Source of the DNA: a virus
DNA length: 37,352 nucleotides
Virus record (IMG/VR): IMGVR_UViG_3300031688_000052
Span: 1 to 37,352 of that record
Strand: one strand, 5' to 3'
Both the position numbers and the translations under genes were made by a program. The notes under the pieces are model-generated. The model worked only from the letters and a program-made list of their open reading frames with translations. It had not been told where the DNA came from and made no database searches. This document shows positions 2,296 to 32,993 of this stretch, piece after piece; position 1 is the first letter of the stretch, and the number at the start of each line of letters is the position of its first letter.

Positions 2296-3224
2296 AATTT
2301 TTACATCTATCAACTCCCAAGTATGGAGGGTGGATAACTTATGCTTCACATTTAATTTTGCGTGACTACCCAAAGCAACATATATTCAAAGTTACAAATA
2401 GACTTGAAAAAAAAACAAGGGACTATGGATTTGGAGTAAAATATCAAAATGTGCCAAAAGAGGCATTAAAAACTTTCACTGATCCTGTCATTATTTCTCT
2501 TGATAGTCATTTCTATGATTGTGTCAAATATCTAAAAGAGCCTACTTTATTTATTCATGACACTGCTGAACCAAGTAAAAAAGAATCAGAATTATATCAA
2601 TCGTTTAAACGTGTATTAACACCAAGAAAAAGTATTGTTAAATTTTTAAAAGAAGAATATAATATTGACGCTGAATATGTAGGCACTCCATTTTATAATT
2701 ACCCAACAGGCACAGCAGAAGTCAAGACAAAAGCAATTTCAATGTGTAGAGTAGAATGGAGGAAAAATCAAGACATTATTTGTAAAGCAAATACTATGTT
2801 AGATACACCTATTGAGATTTGGGGTAAACGCAATCTAATTTATGTTTATCATACGTTGAAAGATTTAGGTTTTGATAAATGGGCAAGGGGTAAAAAAAAT
2901 ACAGGTGCTTATGATATGGATTGGATCACTAGACAAAAATTATTAAACCCTGCTAAATTTTCTATTGACCTGTCAAAATATGTAAGAGATGGGGGTGGAA
3001 CTGACTATGTTTCATTGGAAGCCATACATCATGGCACAGCAGTTGTATTTCATAGGGATTGGGTAAACATTGAAGGATCAATTTGGAAAGAAGGGTATAA
3101 TTGTTTTGCTGTTGAAACTCCAAAAGAGTTAGCAGATTTGATTAAAGAAAATCCTGATATTGAGAACGTTGTAAAGCACTCTAAATCCATTTTAAAACAC
3201 TCTATGGGGTTAAAAGTGATATGA
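2292..3224 (+). CDS. GT-B-type glycosyltransferase, predicted to glycosylate hydroxylated DNA base
   Basis: The C-terminal half has the GT4-like acceptor/donor pattern: a segment starting RVEWRKNQ, then DGGGTDYVSLEAIHHGTAVV with an acidic EAIHHG site, and EGYNCFAV before a final helix. The first TTG (2358) would remove a typical N-terminal nucleotide-fold segment, LHLSTPKYGGWITYASH, which is open upstream. No ATG, GTG or TTG exists there. GGTGA at 2281-2285 followed six bases later by ATA (2292), overlapping the upstream stop as ATAG, is my best start, giving 310 residues. If only canonical starts are allowed the gene is 2358-3224. It overlaps the deacetylase gene by ATGA. Donor sugar unknown; the deacetylase neighbour suggests an N-acetylated sugar. 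Confidence 0.75.
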   Translation: MEFLHLSTPKYGGWITYASHLILRDYPKQHIFKVTNRLEKKTRDYGFGVKYQNVPKEALKTFTDPVIISLDSHFYDCVKYLKEPTLFIHDTAEPSKKESELYQSFKRVLTPRKSIVKFLKEEYNIDAEYVGTPFYNYPTGTAEVKTKAISMCRVEWRKNQDIICKANTMLDTPIEIWGKRNLIYVYHTLKDLGFDKWARGKKNTGAYDMDWITRQKLLNPAKFSIDLSKYVRDGGGTDYVSLEAIHHGTAVVFHRDWVNIEGSIWKEGYNCFAVETPKELADLIKENPDIENVVKHSKSILKHSMGLKVI

Positions 3225-5728: not shown

Positions 5729-6151
5729 ATGCTTAATGATACTGAAACTTTAGTAATACAAACAACACGCATGAGATTAAAGGGAAAAGAGGCACTTGCG
5801 TATCTATCAGCACATGGGACTAACATTACAATACAGCATTACTATAAAGTCAAAAGTAAATTAGATTCTGAAAAACTAAATCGATTGAATGAGATAGGAC
5901 AATATGGATTTGTAGATCAACACTTGGAACGTATAGATAACTTGGAGTTGGTTCAAGAGTTATTATGGAAAAATTATTGGAAGGTTCATTTAGGTAAACC
6001 TGATACAGCGTTAAGAATACTAAGAGAAATTAGAGAGATTCAGCCATACCTATCGGCTTATTACGAAGCAACTAAACATATCATACAGAAGGATCATGGA
6101 CAAGGAAGTATCAATTTATCCAGTTTGGGAACAACAGCAGAAAGAACATGA
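5729..6151 (+). CDS. Terminase small subunit-like protein
   Basis: 140 residues, with a helix-turn-helix-like region near residues 20-45 (KGKEALAYLSAHG...QHYYKVKSKL) and long C-terminal helices. It overlaps the large terminase gene by 56 bases, the usual TerS position. The call rests on context, size and the HTH-like segment, not on a clear family motif. TerS proteins recognise viral DNA for packaging. Confidence 0.6.
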   Translation: MLNDTETLVIQTTRMRLKGKEALAYLSAHGTNITIQHYYKVKSKLDSEKLNRLNEIGQYGFVDQHLERIDNLELVQELLWKNYWKVHLGKPDTALRILREIREIQPYLSAYYEATKHIIQKDHGQGSINLSSLGTTAERT

Positions 6152-7517
6152 AGATGAATTAGTTGATTTTCCTGAATACAGGGGATTAACTTTTCAACAA
6201 TTCTGGGAAGCATTACCAAACAAGTTAGAATACTTTGACTATGAGGAAGAATTAACAACCATACTTGAATCCAATAGAAAGTTATGGGTTAAGAAGGCAA
6301 CAGGATTAGGCATTACTGAATGGACAATTAGATGGATAGCATGGAACTGTCTTAAAGATGATTATTGGAAAGATACCCAAGTTGATGTTACAGGTGTAAT
6401 TATTACAGGAGCAAATCAAGAGTTAACAAACAAGGTTGTAGGTAGATTGAAATCATTATTCAAGCATGAGTTTAAGACTAAGGAATCAGTGTGCATATTG
6501 AACGGTTGTAGAATAGAAGCATTTCCAACTAACCACTTATCCCCTGCAAGAGGACTAAATCCAAAGATAGTTATGCTTGATGAGGCTGATTTCTTTCCTA
6601 CACGATACCAAGATGAAGCACGAACAGTAGCAGAAAGATACATTCCAAAGACCAATCCTCACATACTATTGATAAGCACACCCAACTTGCCAGGAGGATT
6701 GTTTGAAAGAATGGAAGATGAAGATGATAACGGATATGTAATGAAACAGATGGACTATACAATAGGATTAAACAAAGTCTTTAGACCTGAGGACATAGCA
6801 ACAGCAAAGAAATCTCCAAGTTTTGAAAGAGAGTATAATTTAAAATATGGATTTGGTAGTGGAGATATATTTGAAGGCATAGAGAATATTATTGAAGAAT
6901 ATGATTTGACCGTTGTAGGTGGCAGGGGTGGCTGTTACGGTGATCCTGCTTTTGGCTCGTCAAACTTTGGTGTACTAGGGGGGGAAATACGAGATGATTT
7001 ATTGTATGTAACGGAAGCAAACGAATTTCCAAGACCAAGCCCAAGTGCCATGTTAGATGTAATAGAAGATATGGCTCATAGGTATAATGATAATTGTAAG
7101 ATAGATTCTGCTCACCCTGGATTTATTAGAGATTTAGAGGAACGTGGCATACCAGCTCTTCCCATTAACTTTGGACTTCAAATAAGAGATCATGAATCAG
7201 CCAACCAACAATCATTAAGAAGTAAAATGACTATCAATGCGTCACAGATGGTCAAGAATGGTAAAGTAAGAATCCACCCAAATCATACTAAACTAATTGC
7301 ACAGATGAGGTCAGCCCAATTTGATAAGAAGGGTGGAATAGATAAGACGGAATTAAACGCAGATGTATTGGATTGCTTTATCATGTGCTGTTGGGACTTG
7401 AAAGAGTTTGATTATGGACATTACGATATTATGGCAAATAAATTAGTCAATCAAAATGATACCGATAAACCTAAAAGCAACAGTGGAATATCAATTAACA
7501 CAGAGGTAATTGAATGA
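6096..7517 (+). CDS. terL: Terminase large subunit (packaging ATPase/nuclease)
   Basis: The ATPase domain has a Walker A-like KKATGLGITEW (residues 66-76) and Walker B IVMLDEADFF (158-167). The C-terminal RNase H-like nuclease begins at YGDPAFG (D283 as a first metal ligand), with a late acidic motif in NADVLDCF. The 473-residue length is normal. It pumps DNA into the prohead through the portal and cuts the concatemer. The start codon lies inside the TerS frame. The next gene overlaps its stop as ATGA. Confidence 0.93.
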   Translation: MDKEVSIYPVWEQQQKEHEDELVDFPEYRGLTFQQFWEALPNKLEYFDYEEELTTILESNRKLWVKKATGLGITEWTIRWIAWNCLKDDYWKDTQVDVTGVIITGANQELTNKVVGRLKSLFKHEFKTKESVCILNGCRIEAFPTNHLSPARGLNPKIVMLDEADFFPTRYQDEARTVAERYIPKTNPHILLISTPNLPGGLFERMEDEDDNGYVMKQMDYTIGLNKVFRPEDIATAKKSPSFEREYNLKYGFGSGDIFEGIENIIEEYDLTVVGGRGGCYGDPAFGSSNFGVLGGEIRDDLLYVTEANEFPRPSPSAMLDVIEDMAHRYNDNCKIDSAHPGFIRDLEERGIPALPINFGLQIRDHESANQQSLRSKMTINASQMVKNGKVRIHPNHTKLIAQMRSAQFDKKGGIDKTELNADVLDCFIMCCWDLKEFDYGHYDIMANKLVNQNDTDKPKSNSGISINTEVIE

Positions 7518-8171: not shown

Positions 8172-8527
8172 TGGCATACGGTCTTTATCTCTTAATGGAT
8201 CAGCCAAAATGGTTTAGAGGGGATTTTAGCACTACAAACAAACTGACAGGGACATTATACTCTGATCAGAAATTTACAAGAAAAGCAGATTTAACAGGAT
8301 TTACAATTACAATTAGACTAACAAAGAATCATAGATGGGGAGATTATTTTAACAGAGTTGGAAGCATTGTAAGTGCTACCAATGGAACATTCTCATACGC
8401 AATAGCAGAGAATGAATTGCCACCACCTGGACTATACAATGTCAAGATTGAATTATCTAAATCAGGTGCTAGAGAATCAACATTAAATAGACAGGAATTA
8501 TTAATCATTGAAGGTGCCACAGCTTGA
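8171..8527 (+). CDS. BppU-like beta-sandwich virion protein (118 aa)
   Basis: The middle reads DLTGFTITIRLTK and later GTFSYAIAENELPPPGLYNVKIEL, the pattern of N-terminal BppU/baseplate domains that attach fibres to tails. A second protein of the same style is at 22020. GTG start coupled to the upstream mini-ORF; its stop overlaps the TTG of the portal gene. Structural role inferred. Confidence 0.55.
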   Translation: MAYGLYLLMDQPKWFRGDFSTTNKLTGTLYSDQKFTRKADLTGFTITIRLTKNHRWGDYFNRVGSIVSATNGTFSYAIAENELPPPGLYNVKIELSKSGARESTLNRQELLIIEGATA

Positions 8528-9867
8528 ATAATCCCTTTAAAGAAACTAGAATTGAGGAAGCCAAAGCACCATTAGCAAAGATAGTCAGATCAGATTTTTC
8601 AAGGGAGCAACCAATACAAGTTACATTCGAGCAGTTGATTAAGTATCACGACAGGACACCACAATTACAAATAGCAGTATCATCTTATTCAGAATTAATA
8701 ACAGGGACAGAAATGAATGTCACTTGTGAATCAGATACAGCAACAGAGATACTAAACGATTGGATAAGACAATCTGATTTTTATACAAAGTTTGAAAACA
8801 TGGTCACTACCTGTCTAATCACAGGCAACAGTATCTTAGAGAAATTAGATGAGAATGATATTCAAGACGTTGAGGAAGTTGATATGCAAACCATCATAGC
8901 CAAGAAAAGAGATGAGTTTGGAAAGTTAGAACATTACGAGCATAGAACAAACAACGGTCAAACAGCTAAACTGGGAGCAGGTAAACTGGGAAAATTTATC
9001 GAATTTAATTTAACAAACTATTCTAAACAGGCATGGGGAAAATCATTATTTTATTCACTAGCCATTCCAAGAACAATAGGCAACAGAACAACTCCACCGT
9101 TAATTGAAGTCATGTGGTCAATCGAAGATGCTATGTCAGCCATCATTATGAATAACGCTTATCCAATTACAACAATTACTTATCCAGGTGCTAGTGATCC
9201 ATACTTAGAAAAAGAAGCAGTAAGATGGCAAAAATACAAGCCAGGTGACAAGAGAGTTCAAAAGATAAAGCCTGAAATAGATTTCTTTGAAACAGCAGGG
9301 AATAGTAAGTACACTGATTACATTACTCACTTGGAGAAAGTGTTTGAATTAGGCACTCAATTCCCACACGACATAATGACGGGTGACTTTACTAGCAGAG
9401 CCTCATCTGAAACAACAGATAACATTGTAATGAAAAGAGTAAGAGGTTATCAGCGTTATTTGGCTAACAAACTAAAAGTAGAATTATTTGATAACATACT
9501 AATCCAAAACGGATATGATCCAGAATTGGAAGAATGTAAAGTTGCTTTCACTACACAAAACATTGTAGAGTTACAAGTTGATCAAATTAAAGAATTATCT
9601 GTACAAGGGTTAATGACCAAATCAGAATCAAGAGAATGGTTAAGAGTTAACACTGGAATGGAATTACCTGATGATGATGAGATACAAGCAAATCAAGACG
9701 CACAAGCAACCATAGCCAAAAACGCACAGGACATTAAGAAGGAGCATTTCATTAAAGATAATCTAAAACAAATATCAGAAGTAAAAGCAAAGACAATAAG
9801 GAAATGTAAGATGTGCAAAGAATCTCAACACGCCCTTTGTACCAAACGTGGGTGTCAATGTCAATGA
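8524..9867 (+). CDS. Portal protein
   Basis: 447 residues, with the all-alpha/beta order and length of tailed-virus portal proteins: an N-terminal wing with WIRQSDFYTKFENMVTT, then LEKVFELGTQFPHDIMTG before the long stem helix, and a QNIVELQVDQIKELSVQGLMTKSE-type C-terminal region (quoted in part: QIKELSVQGLMTKSE). It follows terL in the standard order. The last 25 residues carry five cysteines (CKMCKESQHALC...CQC), an unusual zinc-binding-like tail. TTG start overlaps the previous stop. Confidence 0.85.
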   Translation: MNNPFKETRIEEAKAPLAKIVRSDFSREQPIQVTFEQLIKYHDRTPQLQIAVSSYSELITGTEMNVTCESDTATEILNDWIRQSDFYTKFENMVTTCLITGNSILEKLDENDIQDVEEVDMQTIIAKKRDEFGKLEHYEHRTNNGQTAKLGAGKLGKFIEFNLTNYSKQAWGKSLFYSLAIPRTIGNRTTPPLIEVMWSIEDAMSAIIMNNAYPITTITYPGASDPYLEKEAVRWQKYKPGDKRVQKIKPEIDFFETAGNSKYTDYITHLEKVFELGTQFPHDIMTGDFTSRASSETTDNIVMKRVRGYQRYLANKLKVELFDNILIQNGYDPELEECKVAFTTQNIVELQVDQIKELSVQGLMTKSESREWLRVNTGMELPDDDEIQANQDAQATIAKNAQDIKKEHFIKDNLKQISEVKAKTIRKCKMCKESQHALCTKRGCQCQ

Positions 9868-10974: not shown

Positions 10975-11559
10975 TTGAACCTTCAAGCATATACTTCCGT
11001 TAATGAATCTGCTCACATTACAGGTGTAGCATTAATTCCAAGAATATCCAGAAATAATAATTTATACACTAAACAGGAATTAGAACGATTTGATGGTGTA
11101 ACTGTTCCGCTTAATTGGGAACATGATCCAACTAACGTAATTGGTCAAGTTACATTCCATTACAACCCAAGCCAAGAAACTGTCTATTATGAGGGGGAAA
11201 TAACCAATGAAGCCTCCGCAAACGTAGCAAGAAACAAACTGCTATTCACTAGCATAGAAGCAACACCAACAGATGTTCAAGAAATCTGTAATGGAGAATC
11301 TGATTGTTTTGCCATGCCATTTGGTTTACGTCCAGAAGGATTAGCATTAACAGAAACACCAGGTGTCCCAGAAACATCTGTTAAAGTTATAGAGAAATAT
11401 ATTGCAGAATGTAACCATCATGAGTTAGAAGCTGACGCAGTAGCAAAGGTTGAAGGAGTAACTACAACTGACTTTATCAACTTTAAGAATCAACTAATGG
11501 ATCATCTACACGTTGAGGAATGTGGCGATTGTCATAAACTACACTCAAAAAAAAACTAA
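10975..11559 (+). CDS. Prohead protease (zero-frame product)
   Basis: A 194-residue protein with the capsid-maturation protease pattern: LNWEHDPTNVIGQV (H50), YYEGEI, LLFTSIEATP (S93, candidate nucleophile) and LALTETPGVPETS. It lies just before the capsid gene, the usual place. The C-terminus has CGDCHKLH, then a run of nine As (11547-11555) and the stop. The sequence A AAA AAC (11550-11556) directly before TAA is a classical -1 slippery site and opens into the KTSC frame. TTG start chosen from the TATA spacing. Confidence 0.8.
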   Translation: MNLQAYTSVNESAHITGVALIPRISRNNNLYTKQELERFDGVTVPLNWEHDPTNVIGQVTFHYNPSQETVYYEGEITNEASANVARNKLLFTSIEATPTDVQEICNGESDCFAMPFGLRPEGLALTETPGVPETSVKVIEKYIAECNHHELEADAVAKVEGVTTTDFINFKNQLMDHLHVEECGDCHKLHSKKN

Positions 11560-11933
11560 ACAATGAAGATGTAGCCCTTAGTGGTGATCATAGTAAAGCA
11601 GATATTAAAAAGAAGAAAAAGAAAAGTTTTGAATTTAAAGAAATATTAGACGATTCATGGAGAGATGTAGAACATTATCTTATTGAAGATGCAACTAACA
11701 GTGGTCAAAAATCTGATACAGTAGGCAATCCAGAATTTAGATCATTCACTCATTCATCTAGTTTTGTTGGGAATGTAATATGGGACAGAGAATCACTTGG
11801 AATGAATATAATATTAAACGGTTCAACATATTCATTTTGTAATGTATCAGAACGGTTATTTGATTCATTTGAGGGTGCTGATAGTAAGGGAGCATTTTTC
11901 AATAGAGAAATAAAAACCTTACACGATTGTTAG
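11538..11933 (+). CDS. KTSC-domain frame, probably read by -1 frameshift from the protease gene
   Basis: Open from 11538 to TAG 11933 in the -1 frame relative to the protease. After a lysine-rich linker (KADIKKKKKKSFEF) it encodes a KTSC domain: SSSFVGNVIWDRESLGMNI, a G-x-x-Y-x-F strand, VSERLFDSFEGADSKGAFFN and REI. There is no ATG, GTG or TTG before the middle of the domain, so it can hardly be translated alone. Slipping at 11550-11556 would yield a fusion of about 319 residues. A homopolymer error in the nine-A run, hiding one continuous gene, is the main alternative. KTSC domains bind nucleic acid or lysyl-tRNA synthetase-type partners; function here unknown. Confidence 0.75.
   Translation, partial: TTLKKKLNNEDVALSGDHSKADIKKKKKKSFEFKEILDDSWRDVEHYLIEDATNSGQKSDTVGNPEFRSFTHSSSFVGNVIWDRESLGMNIILNGSTYSFCNVSERLFDSFEGADSKGAFFNREIKTLHDC
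11550..11556 (+). promoter_or_regulatory. Candidate -1 ribosomal frameshift heptamer
   Basis: A AAA AAC in the protease frame, immediately followed by the TAA stop. After the slip, reading continues as CTA AAC AAT GAA into the KTSC frame. The heptamer type is established for -1 frameshifting in viruses. I could not identify a downstream stimulatory fold. Confidence 0.5.
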
Positions 11934-11964: not shown

Positions 11965-13410
11965 ATGCCTTGCGACTGTAACAAAAAAACAGAAGCTGAC
12001 GATGATAACAAAAAAGAATGTCCTGAGGGACAAAGCTTTGATGTATCTCAAGGTAAATGTGTAGCAAAAGAATCTGCATTTGGTGATCCAAAAGCTGATT
12101 CAACTATTGGCGACTTAGCCAGTAATGGATCAGATGTTGGAGATAAACAAGAAGTTGAAGGTTGTCCAGAAGGACATTCCATAGACGCAACTTCTGGCGT
12201 TTGTCAACCAAATGGTTCTGATAAGACTGACAGCATTGGTCAAACCAACGCTTCAATCGCAACAGAGAAGAAACTAGCTAGCATTGAAAAATCCTTAAAG
12301 GCTCTAACAGAAAAGAAACCTACTGCTCAAATCTCTAATCTAGATGATGGAGTTTACACTTGGAAACAAGTAGCAGAAAATATGGCACCTTCTTTAAGAA
12401 AGTTTGGTAAATTTGAGTTTGACATTAATTTGGAAAGCTTAAGATCAATTAACACTAAACAATCTAAAGATAGAATGGGACAAGTTACTGAATCTTTCAG
12501 AGCTTCTCCACTTCAATTACAAGAAGCAGTAGCCATATCTGGAACACACGCAACACAGGACTTAGACACTGATGTAGCACTTGTTCCTGGCGGTTTATCT
12601 TTTAGACCTGTATTTGAGTTTGCTAAAGTCAAACGTATCGAAGCAGGTATGGATAGAGCAAGATTTTTCAAGACAACTATTCCTGCAAATGGATCACAAA
12701 CCGTTGGATCAACTCCATCACAAGCAACACAAACCTTCACATCAATCGAGGTCACTCCAAGCACTATCACAGGTGTTTACTTAGTAGGTGACTTTGATGA
12801 GATTGAAAATTCACCATTTGACTTATTACAAGCCATTGTTGAAGGCTCTGCCTCAAGTTATGAAGACTTTGTAGCAACTGATATGTTGGACACAAAATCC
12901 AAAGAAGGAACACTCACACCTGGATTATGGATCAGAGGGGACACAGGAGCAACCATTACTTCAAGTAATGTAGCAGCTATGGTCTTTGATGAAACAGCAA
13001 TCGCAGTTGGTCGTGAGTATCTTGAGAATCAAGGATATTTGAGAGGTGGAATAAAACCTGTCGCATTTTTGCACCCGCAACAATGGAGACAACTCATTAC
13101 TTCAACAAACGTAACTTCATTAGCAACTAGATCAGCACCTGACATTTGGCTCAAAGCAGAACTTGAGCAATTTATGGGTGTTCAATTAGTTGTTTCTAAC
13201 GCAGTTGAAGAAAAATCACAAACTAATAACGCATACAACGCAATCATTTGTGTTCCAAAACACTCATACGGTATTGGAATCAAAAGAGATGTAACTGTTA
13301 AGATGCACGAAGTTGGTGAAGACAACCAAGTTAGAGTGAACACTACTTGGAGAACAATGACAGGTATTATTGATGCCACATCTATCGTTAGAGTTTCTAC
13401 AACAGTTTAA
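11965..13410 (+). CDS. Major capsid protein, HK97 fold
   Basis: 481 residues from ATG 11965; GTG 11944 would add seven. The N-terminal 130 residues are acidic and hold two cysteine repeats, CPEGQSFDVSQGKC and CPEGHSIDATSGVC, then a short coiled coil (KKLASIEKSLKALTEKK) like a scaffolding delta domain. The rest fits HK97-type capsid proteins: an N-arm, a spine/A-domain with AFLHPQQWRQLI, GVQLVVSNAVEE, and a late beta-rich IKRDVTVKMHE...RTMTGIIDATSIVRV (shown in part). It follows the protease. Own promoter and a strong terminator suit high expression. Confidence 0.88.
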   Translation: MPCDCNKKTEADDDNKKECPEGQSFDVSQGKCVAKESAFGDPKADSTIGDLASNGSDVGDKQEVEGCPEGHSIDATSGVCQPNGSDKTDSIGQTNASIATEKKLASIEKSLKALTEKKPTAQISNLDDGVYTWKQVAENMAPSLRKFGKFEFDINLESLRSINTKQSKDRMGQVTESFRASPLQLQEAVAISGTHATQDLDTDVALVPGGLSFRPVFEFAKVKRIEAGMDRARFFKTTIPANGSQTVGSTPSQATQTFTSIEVTPSTITGVYLVGDFDEIENSPFDLLQAIVEGSASSYEDFVATDMLDTKSKEGTLTPGLWIRGDTGATITSSNVAAMVFDETAIAVGREYLENQGYLRGGIKPVAFLHPQQWRQLITSTNVTSLATRSAPDIWLKAELEQFMGVQLVVSNAVEEKSQTNNAYNAIICVPKHSYGIGIKRDVTVKMHEVGEDNQVRVNTTWRTMTGIIDATSIVRVSTTV

Positions 13411-15956: not shown

Positions 15957-17594
15957 ATGGCTGATGTTAAGATTTCTGCACTTGGAGCAATATCCGCAGT
16001 AGCAGGTGAAGATTTAGTAGCAATAGTAGATGATCCATCTGGAACACCTGCCTCAAGAAAAGCAACAATAACTCAACTAGCAACTTTCATTAATGCAAGT
16101 GGTATCACAGCCTCAAGTACAGCAACTTTAACCAATAAAACCATTGACGCAGAAGGAACAGGAAACAGCATATCCAATATTGATGTGGCTAACCTTAAAT
16201 CAGGTGTACTAGACACCGATATTTCATCAGTATCAGGTAGTGACGATACAATACCAAGTGCAAAAGCAGTTAAAACAGCAATAGACGCAAAAGCCTCAAC
16301 CATATCTCAATTAACTGACACAACAATTTCATCAGTAGGGGACAATGAATTATTACAATATGACAGCTCATCTTCAAAATGGATTAATCAAACAATAGCA
16401 GAAGCAGGTTTATCTCCTGTTGCAGGATCATCTAGCATAGTAACAACTGGAACAATAGGAACTGGAACATGGCAAGGAACAGCCATAGCATCTGCATATA
16501 TCGCAGGTGACGCTATTGTTGCTTCAAAAATTGCTGACAATGCTATTGATTCTGAACACTATACAGATGGAAGTATTGACCTTGCACACATGAGTGTAAA
16601 CTCAATAGATTCTGACCAATACGTTGACGCAAGTATTGACCTGGTTCATTTATCTGCTGATTCTGTTAACGGAACAAAAATAGCAGATGATTCTATTAAT
16701 TCAGAACATATAGTTGACGGATCAGTTGACTTGGCTCACATGAGTGTAAATTCCATTGATAGTGATCAATATGTTGACGGATCAATAGATTTAATCCATT
16801 TAAGTGCTAATAGTGTAGATTCAAATCAATACGTTGATGGCTCTATTGACCTGATTCATCTAAGTGCTAACAGTGTAGATAGTGACCAATATGTAGATGG
16901 TTCTATTGATTTAATTCATTTAAGTGCCAATTCAGTTGATTCAAATCAATATGTAGATGGATCAATAGATAATGTTCATGTAGCAACAGGATTAGACGCA
17001 GTAAAACTAGCAGATGGAAGTGTAACCAATGCAGAATTACAATATATCAATACTTTATCATCTAATGCACAAACTCAAATAAATAGTAAATCTGCAACAG
17101 CAGGTAATACATCACTCACAACTGTGGGAACTATTGGGACAGGAACATGGAACGCAACAGTAATAGCAAGTGCTAAACTAGATGCTGACACAGCCCATTT
17201 ATCTACAACACAAACTTTTTCAGGTGCTAAAACATTTAGTGCTAATGTTGATGTTGCAGGTAATAATATTGACAATGTTAGAAATATTATACATGACATT
17301 GAAACCTCTGGAACTGACATTAATTTTGCGGAAGATGATCTTCAAACAATATCTATATCAGCCGCAACAACATTCTCAACAGCATATAGAGCCGCAGGAA
17401 AAACAAAAGTGTTAAGAATACTAGCAGATGGAACTGACAGAGTTTGTACATTCCCAAGTGGAATAAGATGGTTAGGAGTTGCTCCATCATCTAACACTTA
17501 CACAGTAACAGCCAGTAAGTATGCAATAGTTACATTGACCTGTTTTGACGGAAATGAATCAGGCATACTTGGTGTTTTCGCACTAGAGGCGTAA
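15957..17594 (+). CDS. Tail fibre protein with tandem 20-residue repeats (545 aa)
   Basis: The N-terminal part carries fibre-like segments (ATLTNKTIDAEGTGNSIS, TVGTIGTGTW-type strands). The centre has about seven copies of a 20-residue unit such as NSVDSNQYVDGSIDLIHLSA, suggesting a repetitive shaft. A second GTIGTGTWNATVIASAKL segment and a beta-rich C-terminal domain follow. I know such GTGTW-type sequences from marine phage fibres. Strong GGAGG ribosome-binding site. Likely role: host binding. Confidence 0.75.
   Translation: MADVKISALGAISAVAGEDLVAIVDDPSGTPASRKATITQLATFINASGITASSTATLTNKTIDAEGTGNSISNIDVANLKSGVLDTDISSVSGSDDTIPSAKAVKTAIDAKASTISQLTDTTISSVGDNELLQYDSSSSKWINQTIAEAGLSPVAGSSSIVTTGTIGTGTWQGTAIASAYIAGDAIVASKIADNAIDSEHYTDGSIDLAHMSVNSIDSDQYVDASIDLVHLSADSVNGTKIADDSINSEHIVDGSVDLAHMSVNSIDSDQYVDGSIDLIHLSANSVDSNQYVDGSIDLIHLSANSVDSDQYVDGSIDLIHLSANSVDSNQYVDGSIDNVHVATGLDAVKLADGSVTNAELQYINTLSSNAQTQINSKSATAGNTSLTTVGTIGTGTWNATVIASAKLDADTAHLSTTQTFSGAKTFSANVDVAGNNIDNVRNIIHDIETSGTDINFAEDDLQTISISAATTFSTAYRAAGKTKVLRILADGTDRVCTFPSGIRWLGVAPSSNTYTVTASKYAIVTLTCFDGNESGILGVFALEA
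16552..16980 (+). repeat. 60-base tandem repeats in the fibre gene
   Basis: Units of about 60 bases encode the QYVDGSIDLIHLSANSVDS repeat. Third-codon positions vary between copies (AGTGTAGAT, TCTGTTAAC, TCAGTTGAT), so amplification is not recent or is followed by diversification. Confidence 0.8.
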
Positions 17595-28825: not shown

Positions 28826-29293
28826 ATGAGCCAAATTGTCTATATGATAAAGTGTGTAAAGTGCAAGTCAGAATTTAATCAGGGCGATACCAATAGACGA
28901 TTTTGTGTGTCATGTAGGTATGTTAAAGATGAAGCCCAAAGAAAAAGAGCTCATGATAAAAGAGAAATAAAACGATACCAGGCAAAAGTAAAACCTGAAT
29001 ATTATACTAGATTCTGTACTGTATGTGATAGGGAATTTAAAACAAAATTTAAGAACAAGGAATTTTGCACGAAACTTTGTCAATCAAGAATCAAAACATT
29101 TCCAGTACAACTTGAGAATGTGGAAGCACATATTACAAAAATAGAAGAAAATATTGTAAACGTAAATCTAAGATATGAAAAAAAAATGAACAAACTCCAA
29201 GATGAAATAGATTTTATTAATTTTGATTTAGAAAAAATAAGATTGAAATATGTATCAAAGTTTGAATATTTAAAAAAAGTAATGAATAAATAA
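28826..29293 (+). CDS. Two zinc ribbons plus coiled coil (155 aa)
   Basis: The N-terminal ribbon has CVKC and CVSC, a basic linker follows, then a second ribbon with CTVC and CTKLC. The last 60 residues are a coiled coil (NLRYEKKMNKLQDEIDFINF). Such proteins typically bind nucleic acid or act as transcription adaptors. A second ATG seven codons in (28844) is possible. Confidence 0.65.
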   Translation: MSQIVYMIKCVKCKSEFNQGDTNRRFCVSCRYVKDEAQRKRAHDKREIKRYQAKVKPEYYTRFCTVCDREFKTKFKNKEFCTKLCQSRIKTFPVQLENVEAHITKIEENIVNVNLRYEKKMNKLQDEIDFINFDLEKIRLKYVSKFEYLKKVMNK

Positions 29294-30881: not shown

Positions 30882-32993
30882 ATGAGTGACGTAATTTCTT
30901 TCAAGTATAGTGGTGATAAAGACCGATACAACAGATTCAAGGCAAGTAAAATGAGCCAAGGGTTAACTATGGAAGAAACTTTTAGCAAATTTATTGATCA
31001 AGAATTGATAATGGATTTTGCAAAAGAGGGTGAAATAAATCAAACAGCCTCAAAACATGAGAATGATTTAAGGGATATATTATTGAATCATGATTTATCT
31101 AGAGTTATGGTCAAAGGATCATATCATGTTGTTATTGATGATATGGAATTTATACAGGCTACAACTCATGATTTAGGAAAAAGAATTAAAAACGCTGTTC
31201 ATAGTGCCATTGAAACGTATAGTGTAAAAAAATGGGCTACAAGCAAAGTGGACAGTATGTCAGAAGATGTACTTGCAGATAGAATAGATAACATAGCAGG
31301 TGGAGCAGAACAAACTAAAGATACCATAATCAAACAAGAAATGACAAAATATTATCTAAGTGATATGACTAAATTTCATGAGAGGGTTGATAATGTTAAG
31401 GTCACATATACTTGCGACATTCCAATTATTACTTTATCTGATCTAAGAGAGTTTGATTTGGGTAGGGTAATTCAGTTTGATTGTACTATCATCGGACAAA
31501 CTCCAAAAAAATATGAAATTGAAACTGGCAAATATATTCAAAGTGTACTGATACAGGAAACAGAATCAAAAGCAAGAAACAATAATCCAGTAGTCATTCA
31601 ATCAGTACTTCATGGAAATGATACAAACAATATTGCCACAGGTCAAACAAAAAGATTCATTGGTATCTATTCTACCCAAGAGCCAAAAAATGGAGTAAAG
31701 GCTGAATCACAAAAAATATTATACATTGATACAATATCAATTAAAGAACTAGAAGAAAAAGCAGATGTTGAATTGTCAGAACGTGAATTAACAGTAGCCA
31801 AAGAATTTGCTTTAACTCAGGAAGATGAATATTTTGAGAAATTAATTGCCTCATTCTGCCCTAAAATTTATGGAAGGGAATTAGAAAAAAAGGCATTATA
31901 CTTGGCTCTATTAGGAGGCTCAGCATTTAATGGGTATAGAAAAGAATCTCATTTAATGTTAGTAGGTGAGGCAGATACAGGTAAATCTGAATTGGTAAAG
32001 TTTGCTAATACAGTAGCAAGTAAATCATCTATGATTGATGGCAGTAATTCAACAGGTGTAGGAATATTATTTGCACTAGATGAATATGATGGCATGAAAA
32101 TTTTAAGACAGGGTGCTATGATTATGAACAATGGTGGTCATTTAATGGTAGATGAATATGACAAAATGCCTAAACAAGAACAGAAAAAACTTAACGTTGC
32201 TATGGAACAACAACACGCTAAATATAATAAAGGTGGACACATGGCTGACGCAGAATGTAAAACAGGAATAATAGCAAGTGCTAATCCTAAGAATGAAAGA
32301 TGGAGTGAAGGAAAAGACCTGATTGATAATTTACCTTTTGACGCTTCAACCATATCTAGATTTGATGTAATGATTAGATTAAAACACGATACAAGTGAGA
32401 ATGAGATTAGGGCAAAGATGTTACATATATCTAAAAACAAGAGGGGGGATAATGATCAAGTTGCTAATCCTAAATGGGTGCAGGGACTATTGAATTATTT
32501 AAGAAAGTTAAAACCTGTATTCACAATAGAGGCAGAAAAATTACTCATTAATAGATTTGTAGAGTTTACCCAAATCGAACAAGATAATGGATCATTACCA
32601 ATTCAAACTAGACAGATGGAGGGTATTCAAAGACTGTGTGAGGCATGGGCAAAGATGTTATTCAAGACAGAAATTGATACAAAGATAGTTGAAGATGTTA
32701 TCAAATTCTATCAGGAATGTATGTTAACATTAGGAATGAACGTTGAAAAAGGTATTAGTCAAATGGACTTGAGGGGACATAGTACAAACAAGGAGGTATA
32801 TTTTGAAGATTGTTTTAGGACTTTAGCATTAAAAGATAAAGACGGATTGGTGGACTTGAAAGATTTGGCGATTGAATTATTATCTAATCAAAAAATGTTT
32901 TATACTGACGACATGGTATTAAGATACATTGAAGCAAGGAAGGTTAAAGGGTGGTTGTATGAGCCAAAAGTTGGAGTGTTAAAAAGACAATGA
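30882..32993 (+). CDS. mcm: MCM replicative helicase
   Basis: A 703-residue archaeal-type MCM. An OB-fold region around residues 180-280 precedes the AAA+ domain. Walker A is GEADTGKSEL (about 361), Walker B GGHLMVDEYDKM (about 417) and the arginine finger ISRFDVMIRL (about 491). The Walker A has A for the usual P. The first 45 residues (FKYSGDKDRYNRFKASKMS and on) look like a ribbon-helix-helix rather than the standard MCM A-domain, possibly giving origin recognition. It unwinds viral DNA and would recruit host polymerase. Confidence 0.92.
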   Translation: MSDVISFKYSGDKDRYNRFKASKMSQGLTMEETFSKFIDQELIMDFAKEGEINQTASKHENDLRDILLNHDLSRVMVKGSYHVVIDDMEFIQATTHDLGKRIKNAVHSAIETYSVKKWATSKVDSMSEDVLADRIDNIAGGAEQTKDTIIKQEMTKYYLSDMTKFHERVDNVKVTYTCDIPIITLSDLREFDLGRVIQFDCTIIGQTPKKYEIETGKYIQSVLIQETESKARNNNPVVIQSVLHGNDTNNIATGQTKRFIGIYSTQEPKNGVKAESQKILYIDTISIKELEEKADVELSERELTVAKEFALTQEDEYFEKLIASFCPKIYGRELEKKALYLALLGGSAFNGYRKESHLMLVGEADTGKSELVKFANTVASKSSMIDGSNSTGVGILFALDEYDGMKILRQGAMIMNNGGHLMVDEYDKMPKQEQKKLNVAMEQQHAKYNKGGHMADAECKTGIIASANPKNERWSEGKDLIDNLPFDASTISRFDVMIRLKHDTSENEIRAKMLHISKNKRGDNDQVANPKWVQGLLNYLRKLKPVFTIEAEKLLINRFVEFTQIEQDNGSLPIQTRQMEGIQRLCEAWAKMLFKTEIDTKIVEDVIKFYQECMLTLGMNVEKGISQMDLRGHSTNKEVYFEDCFRTLALKDKDGLVDLKDLAIELLSNQKMFYTDDMVLRYIEARKVKGWLYEPKVGVLKRQ

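Follow-up and report, generated by a model that had tools for sequence, protein, structure and literature searches.

Evidence for a probable -1 recoding site and an exchangeable extension at the end of the capsid protease gene in a lineage of putative archaeal tailed viruses

Minor, longer forms of a head protein are made by frameshifting in phage T7 (gp10A/10B) and in similar systems, with slippage near the end of the gene, and the T7 extension is one fixed structural domain. A second group of related systems comprises the MuF polymorphic toxins (Jamet et al. 2017, PMC5576092), the polyvalent proteins (Iyer et al. 2017, PMC5512222), and the reported effector fusions to MuF, portal and capsid-processing serine peptidase proteins (PMC9503650), in all of which a virion head protein carries variable C-terminal effectors that include ADP-ribosyltransferases (ARTs) and metallopeptidases; in the passages found in these sources, the fusions are single polypeptides and no frameshift is mentioned. 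For archaea, a 2021 review gives one studied case of -1 frameshifting together with reports in a few haloarchaeal viruses, and the cases described include -1 frameshifting at A-AAA-AAT in Saccharolobus fucA1 and -1 PRF reported for the haloarchaeal viruses HVTV-1, HCTV-1, -2 and -5 (PMC8211752).

The locus described here lies in a virus record of 37,352 bases (33% G+C), the whole of which was analysed and is referred to below as the window. Its features are listed in Table 1, and the comparisons that follow support an exchangeable extension of the capsid protease that is gated by recoding, a wider finding than the protease-KTSC fusion from which the analysis started. Like T7 gp10B, the predicted product is a minor, C-terminally extended head protein arising through slippage near the gene end, but in place of one fixed domain there is an exchangeable cassette on a protease. 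With the MuF toxins and polyvalent proteins it shares a virion head protein with variable C-terminal domains, which likewise include, by motif, putative ARTs and metallopeptidases (PMC5576092, PMC5512222 and PMC9503650), and the combination of a constant head-protein N-terminus with exchangeable C-terminal domains that defines a polymorphic head-carried family is met by the protease loci. Unlike those systems, the carrier is a prohead protease, the cargo would be reached via a -1 shift only, the viruses are inferred to be archaeal and the KTSC tail is constant; the carrier has a prohead-protease fold without a Pfam match at E 0.01, and would work like a MuF toxin without being filed as one. 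An A-rich heptamer, a -1 shift and an origin in archaea or their viruses are common to this locus, fucA1 and the haloarchaeal viruses (PMC8211752), but fucA1 is a split host enzyme with mostly full-length relatives, whereas here the shift is kept across a virus lineage with many swapped domains. Recoding and head-carried polymorphic effectors are each known, and their combination was not found described; among the titles returned by our literature searches, whose full texts were only partly covered, there is no earlier report of a frameshift in conjunction with a head maturation protease.

Table 1. Features of the window and domain types in the -1 frame of related loci
Feature	Locus	Position	Strand	Remarks
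Terminase large subunit	window	6096-7517	+	PHROG 2, E 3e-17; 44% identical to Pro-Nvie1 terminase
Portal protein	window	8524-9867	+	PHROG 9232 portal, E 3.5e-10
Prohead (capsid maturation) protease	window	10975-11559	+	zero frame, TTG start, 194 aa
CxxC knuckle (C-G-D-C)	window	11521-11532	+	just 5' of slip site
A9 run	window	11547-11555	+	exactly nine As
Slippery heptamer A AAA AAC	window	11550-11556	+	X XXY YYZ in protease frame
-1 frame extension	window	11550-11933	+	125 codons beyond slip codons; stop 11931-11933
Zero-frame stop TAA	window	11557-11559	+	directly after slip site
Lys-rich linker (KKKKKK)	window	11607-11624	+	-1 frame, ahead of KTSC
KTSC domain (PF13619)	window	11754-11915	+	-1 frame; Pfam E 4.4e-11
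Major capsid protein (MCP)	window	11965-13410	+	ATG 11965, start motif; PHROG 544 major head protein, E 2e-8
MCM-type replicative helicase	window	30882-32993		PF00493, E 2e-40
HELAH/HELSH zincin-like domain	L004, L021			weak metallopeptidase matches
HEIAH/HEIGH zincin-like type (second family)	L016, L022, L050			
Possible ADP-ribosyltransferase (one of two types, HYTN and FRG/QAE)	L014			motif only
Possible ADP-ribosyltransferase (the other of these two types)	L005, L009			motif only
Hydrophobic-helix segment	L017, L020, L059; also L021			in L021 together with zincin

The terminase, protease and capsid protein of the window find a sole match among 50,697 phage records, the Nitrososphaera provirus Pro-Nvie1 (FR725450). 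Because of these matches and the MCM-type helicase, which is in keeping with an archaeal virus, we infer that the window belongs to a tailed virus, probably marine, whose hosts are ammonia-oxidising archaea (Nitrososphaeria). The three proteins are homologous in the two viruses, but in Pro-Nvie1, as in a Nitrososphaera MAG, the protease is fused in frame to the MCP in one ORF, and there is no A-run, KTSC domain or extension; the window protease is 33% identical to the protease/MCP of the provirus, and the window MCP 31% identical to the MCP part of that fusion. The N-terminus of the window capsid protein (11965-12200) contains two Cys-rich repeats, CPEGQSFDVSQGKC and CPEGHSIDATSGVC, ahead of the capsid domain, and is possibly a scaffold-like or processed region.

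The protease gene is located between the portal and MCP genes. Sequence evidence for its identity is thin, with a match to PHROG 3270 (head maturation protease) at E 4e-4 and only chance matches in a PDB sequence search with the protease profile, and its structure was therefore modelled with AF2 from 25 relatives. The model has a mean pLDDT of 65, with core residues 31-130 mostly at 74-91, and its top structural match is T4 gp21 (5jbl), with Z 8.9 across 118 residues; herpesvirus assemblins come next, with Z values of 8 to 5. The predicted fold is thus of the assemblin/gp21 type, with the reservation that the pLDDT is moderate. His50 and Ser93 are invariant in the 25 protease sequences, although they have not been placed on an active site. 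In the relatives, too, a Cys pair (CxDC, CxCC or CxHC) stands ahead of the run, despite subfamily-specific linkers before the pair.

At the end of the gene the zero-frame codons read TCA AAA AAA AAC TAA, and from 11538 onwards the -1 frame stays open until its stop. The first-pass annotation had reported a protease frame ending in A AAA AAC TAA at a run of nine As, and a 125-codon -1 stretch that closes with a KTSC domain and lacks any ATG, GTG or TTG before its middle; each of these observations was reproduced. The KTSC domain scores 42.8 bits against a family cut-off of 25, is recovered in a search of the virus's own genome at E 7e-13 and is uninterrupted by stops, and the first possible start of the -1 frame, the ATG at 11802, lies within it. 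From the sequence, a trans-frame fusion would be about 319 aa long, as against 194 aa for the plain protease. Two further ORFs of the window also have a heptamer followed by a long -1 frame, which in their case has a start codon of its own. At the protease the pattern is more than chance, because it recurs in 33/33 loci (see below) and synonymous sites of the KTSC tail are near saturation (pS 0.675). Stop-codon readthrough was considered and rejected, as KTSC is outside the zero frame, which soon stops again; a +1 shift was likewise rejected, because loci with the run have a +1 frame that closes at most 22 codons past the stop.

Relatives were found by two IMG/VR scans, and requiring a readable 3' end and the run gave 33 loci, namely the window and 32 contigs from 27 metagenome data sets. 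The contigs are metagenomic and several are near-duplicates, and probabilities are therefore given for lineages (11) rather than loci. Several patterns emerge. First, the run itself is kept, as A9 in 30 loci and A10 in three, and is followed by C in 30 loci and by G in three; an alignment of 30 unique sequences anchored at the run has A throughout columns -9 to -1, without exception, while the flanks vary. Secondly, the zero frame stops (TAA or TAG) within 0-5 codons past the run in all 33 loci, and the -1 frame remains open for 87-519 codons in the 31 complete extensions. Thirdly, the heptamer is A AAA AAC or A AAA AAG in 30/33, with one small clade of three loci having A AAA AAA ACG. A second protease subfamily, 66-72% identical over residues 1-150 but with an unrelated linker up to the slip site, shares the signal. 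Relatives with eight or ten As that made one continuous gene would have spoken against recoding, but the extension is in frame with the protease in none of the 33 loci, and in the three A10 loci the preceding codon is GAA, such that the required shift remains -1. Homopolymers are error-prone and only assembled sequence, without raw reads, was at hand; nevertheless, a sequencing or assembly error can for practical purposes be discounted, since the same out-of-frame length recurs in every one of these loci across the 27 data sets.

The KTSC tail has a pN/pS of 0.20 in the -1 frame, compared to 1.34 and 2.01 in the other two frames, which indicates purifying selection in the -1 frame only; the cargo inserts described below were outside this measurement. 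Start codons in the 31 complete extensions are scattered and mostly fall in or past the KTSC motif, with no conserved ATG, GTG or TTG ahead of the domain. It is thus very improbable that the extension is not recoded at all, being instead an independent gene with an unusual start or reinitiation after the stop, or a decaying remnant: neither accounts for the invariant run, and decay of the KTSC tail is excluded by the strong purifying selection. A KTSC gene with its own start does exist in one relative: in the L022 contig a zincin fills the -1 extension, which ends by itself, and behind it a distinct ORF with an ATG encodes KTSC (L075). A separate gene with a hidden start was rejected for all other contigs. 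The L016 contig resembles the L022 arrangement as far as its sequence reaches (L100). A programmed -1 shift yielding both protease and protease-KTSC, as first proposed, is therefore supported, with the site kept in every relative that has the run, and would be the only ordinary way to express the extension.

The content of the extension varies considerably. In 21 of the 32 classifiable loci, the window included, it consists of a Lys-rich linker and KTSC alone, and in the other 11 further modules lie between slip site and KTSC or replace KTSC. Several cargo types can be recognised (Table 1): two zincin-like families, two possible ARTs, and a membrane-helix segment. The zincins of L004 and L021 are 43% identical to each other and their proteases belong to different clades; both begin with the motif NHAPxGDSKGGQFTKGDGGSG. 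Most relatives that have KTSC show a Lys-rich stretch, KKKK-KKKKKK, ahead of F-x-F; where cargo is inserted, the stretch comes after it. The assignment of the L014 and L005 cargo as ARTs is a guess from motifs: neither has a Pfam match, and for the L014 cargo neither a PDB search nor a single-sequence model (mean pLDDT 50) gave support for an ART. Scanning with the L004 and L005 cargo yielded no copies outside the contigs already known. Any effector activity of the exchangeable domains is similarly inferred from motifs.

The extension of L014 (L014:3497-5059) bears the linker W-x-GY-x-Q-x-GMKDKDGKQVPNCV. Many phage proteins of the structural region, portal-like and protease-like ones among them, have it too (L100; L101-L132), often between a head protein and a variable C-terminal part, and it may be a general tag of head-carried domains. 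In two of these contigs (L113 and L114) a large ORF, starting at about 1402 and 1348 respectively, encodes a portal-like protein followed by the NCV linker, a RAKNGQFGSGG motif, to which the motif of the L004 and L021 zincins is comparable, and a P-loop kinase-like domain (MFTAGGSGSGKSE) that resembles zeta-toxin kinases, by motif only.

Exchange of these modules is sharply delimited. Between L005 and L009, which come from different data sets, not one base differs over 588 nt counted from the run's first A, and the last upstream mismatch falls on the base immediately before that A; similarity is about 80-94% upstream (150-nt windows) and about 70% past the cassette. The protease cores of L028 and L030 (429 nt) are 100% identical versus 37% just past the run, and those of L047 and L049 98% versus 33%. 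The A-run is thus at once swap boundary and inferred recoding site. On the protease-core tree, many inner branches of which are weak, the cargo state changes at least 10 times. The extension thus has the character of a cassette slot, as judged from these alignments, with variable modules and KTSC as common tail.

Ribosomal frameshifting and polymerase slippage on the A9 cannot be distinguished with the present sequence data. With polymerase slippage, some of the mRNAs would gain one A and be translated in a single frame, and we regard this as a real possibility at somewhat less than an even chance. All 33 loci have at least nine As although the heptamer requires just seven bases, and A is the third base of every codon that precedes the AAA pair, whichever amino acid (S, A, P, L, V, I or E) that codon encodes (chance probability about 0.002 over 11 lineages), which implies that more than the heptamer is kept. 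The one clade with the run in another phase would go unnoticed by polymerase slippage, which would also allow the absence of a downstream stimulator: no conserved downstream stem was found, with mean z of -0.20, -0.06 and +0.24 for 50, 80 and 120 nt (n=30; pseudoknots are outside the model). A-rich heptamers are able to work without a stimulatory structure.

In many bacteria, selection against runs prone to slippage becomes visible once they reach nine As, and an A9 drives slippage in Thermus dnaX (PMC1088944). Thermus dnaX and IS elements with transcriptional slippage resemble the present locus in having an A9 run with a stop nearby in one frame (PMC1088944), but these are bacterial, and here the preference in the flanking base points to a ribosomal heptamer. 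The base after the run is never T, being C or G in 33/33 (about 2e-4 by chance over 11 lineages), and thereby makes the classical heptamers A AAA AAC and A AAA AAG; in the window genes, 20 of 37 A6+ runs have T as the next base, with AAT/TTA as preferred codons, and in the commonest form, AAC TAR, a change to T after the run would be silent in both frames. Two other A9 runs occur in the window, such that A9 is not shunned by the virus. Both chance figures use the codon usage of the window and were framed after the data were seen. No report of archaeal polymerase slippage was found in the literature searched, and we lean slightly towards the ribosome over the polymerase. The junction residue, K or N, provides a built-in test of mechanism: a tandem ribosomal slip is predicted to give SKKN-LNNEDV, with the tryptic junction peptide NLNNEDVALSGDHSK, and an A10 mRNA SKKK-LNNEDV, the peptide LNNEDVALSGDHSK being predicted for an A10 mRNA or a single P-site slip.

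The device is not universal among relatives. Because L057 and L062, from related lineages, and the provirus relatives lack both run and extension, these are not essential to the wider family. GTDB contigs scanned with the window-type protease gave no match, and among 400 genomes of the class of the Nitrososphaera MAG 19 have distant homologues, none of them with a run of eight or more As at the locus; the readable homologue loci are long single ORFs. In a more distant lineage (L092 and L094-L096; L095:3827-5137) the domain order is reversed, a related protease bearing KTSC as an in-frame fusion at its N-terminus, such that the pairing of KTSC and protease is independent of the shift. The device was either gained in the marine lineage or lost repeatedly, and the tree does not settle which.

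What the comparisons establish, at the level of sequence alone, is a conserved run, a selected -1 KTSC frame without a start, and cassette swapping at the run. We consider it likely that a minority -1 shift at the conserved A9 makes a low-copy protease-(cargo)-KTSC protein that loads cargo into the prohead, although slippage, packaging, cleavage and delivery are all inferred. The nine-A run (A AAA AAC/G, then an immediate stop) would shift a minority of expression events by -1, with the plain protease of 194 aa as the main product and the fusion with its variable cargo as the minor one, 319 aa here and up to about 710 aa in relatives. Frameshifting would keep the copies few, and the protease part is inferred to take the fusion into the prohead because a protease acting during assembly has to be there. 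The fusion may be held on DNA by its Lys-rich/KTSC tail, and cleavage during maturation may release cargo-KTSC, which would then travel with the DNA into the next host. New cargo joined after the run would emerge as a -1 fusion, since the A-run is both recoding signal and swap junction. On the fuller proposal, that this is a plug-in cargo system in which the nine-A site serves as recoding signal and recombination junction and a few fused copies enter the prohead and reach an ammonia-oxidising host, our judgement is evenly balanced.

The fact that most classifiable loci have only linker and KTSC, with no established head use, runs contrary to cargo loading. It favours the main rival for function, in which the extended protease serves regulation or anchoring, its KTSC and Lys-rich tail binding DNA or scaffold to time maturation, with no cargo loading. 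KTSC is termed DNA-binding in PMC9503650, and its junction to the protease in another order in the more distant lineage agrees with this. We nonetheless think this reading unlikely, as it leaves unexplained the unrelated enzyme-like domains in the slot, their frequent exchange, and the linker motifs common to portal-effector proteins. The first-pass suggestion that the shift regulates the dose of a nucleic-acid-binding domain is too narrow, since KTSC is merely the tail shared by extensions whose remaining content varies and is exchanged.

If the proposed recoding is correct, the support for this archaeal recoding site, which has 33 natural variants, is comparatively good. Head-carried polymorphic effectors would then extend to viruses likely infecting marine ammonia-oxidising archaea, there with a dosage device on the capsid protease. 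Ordinary ORF calling is expected to cut such genes at the slip site, and their cargo domains may be missed.

Elsewhere in the window, a probable tail protein (15957-17594) contains many near-identical DGSIDLIHLSANSVDSNQYV repeats. The two other A9 runs are at 2407-2415 and 29178-29186, and the former sits in an ORF (2358-3224), close to its start.
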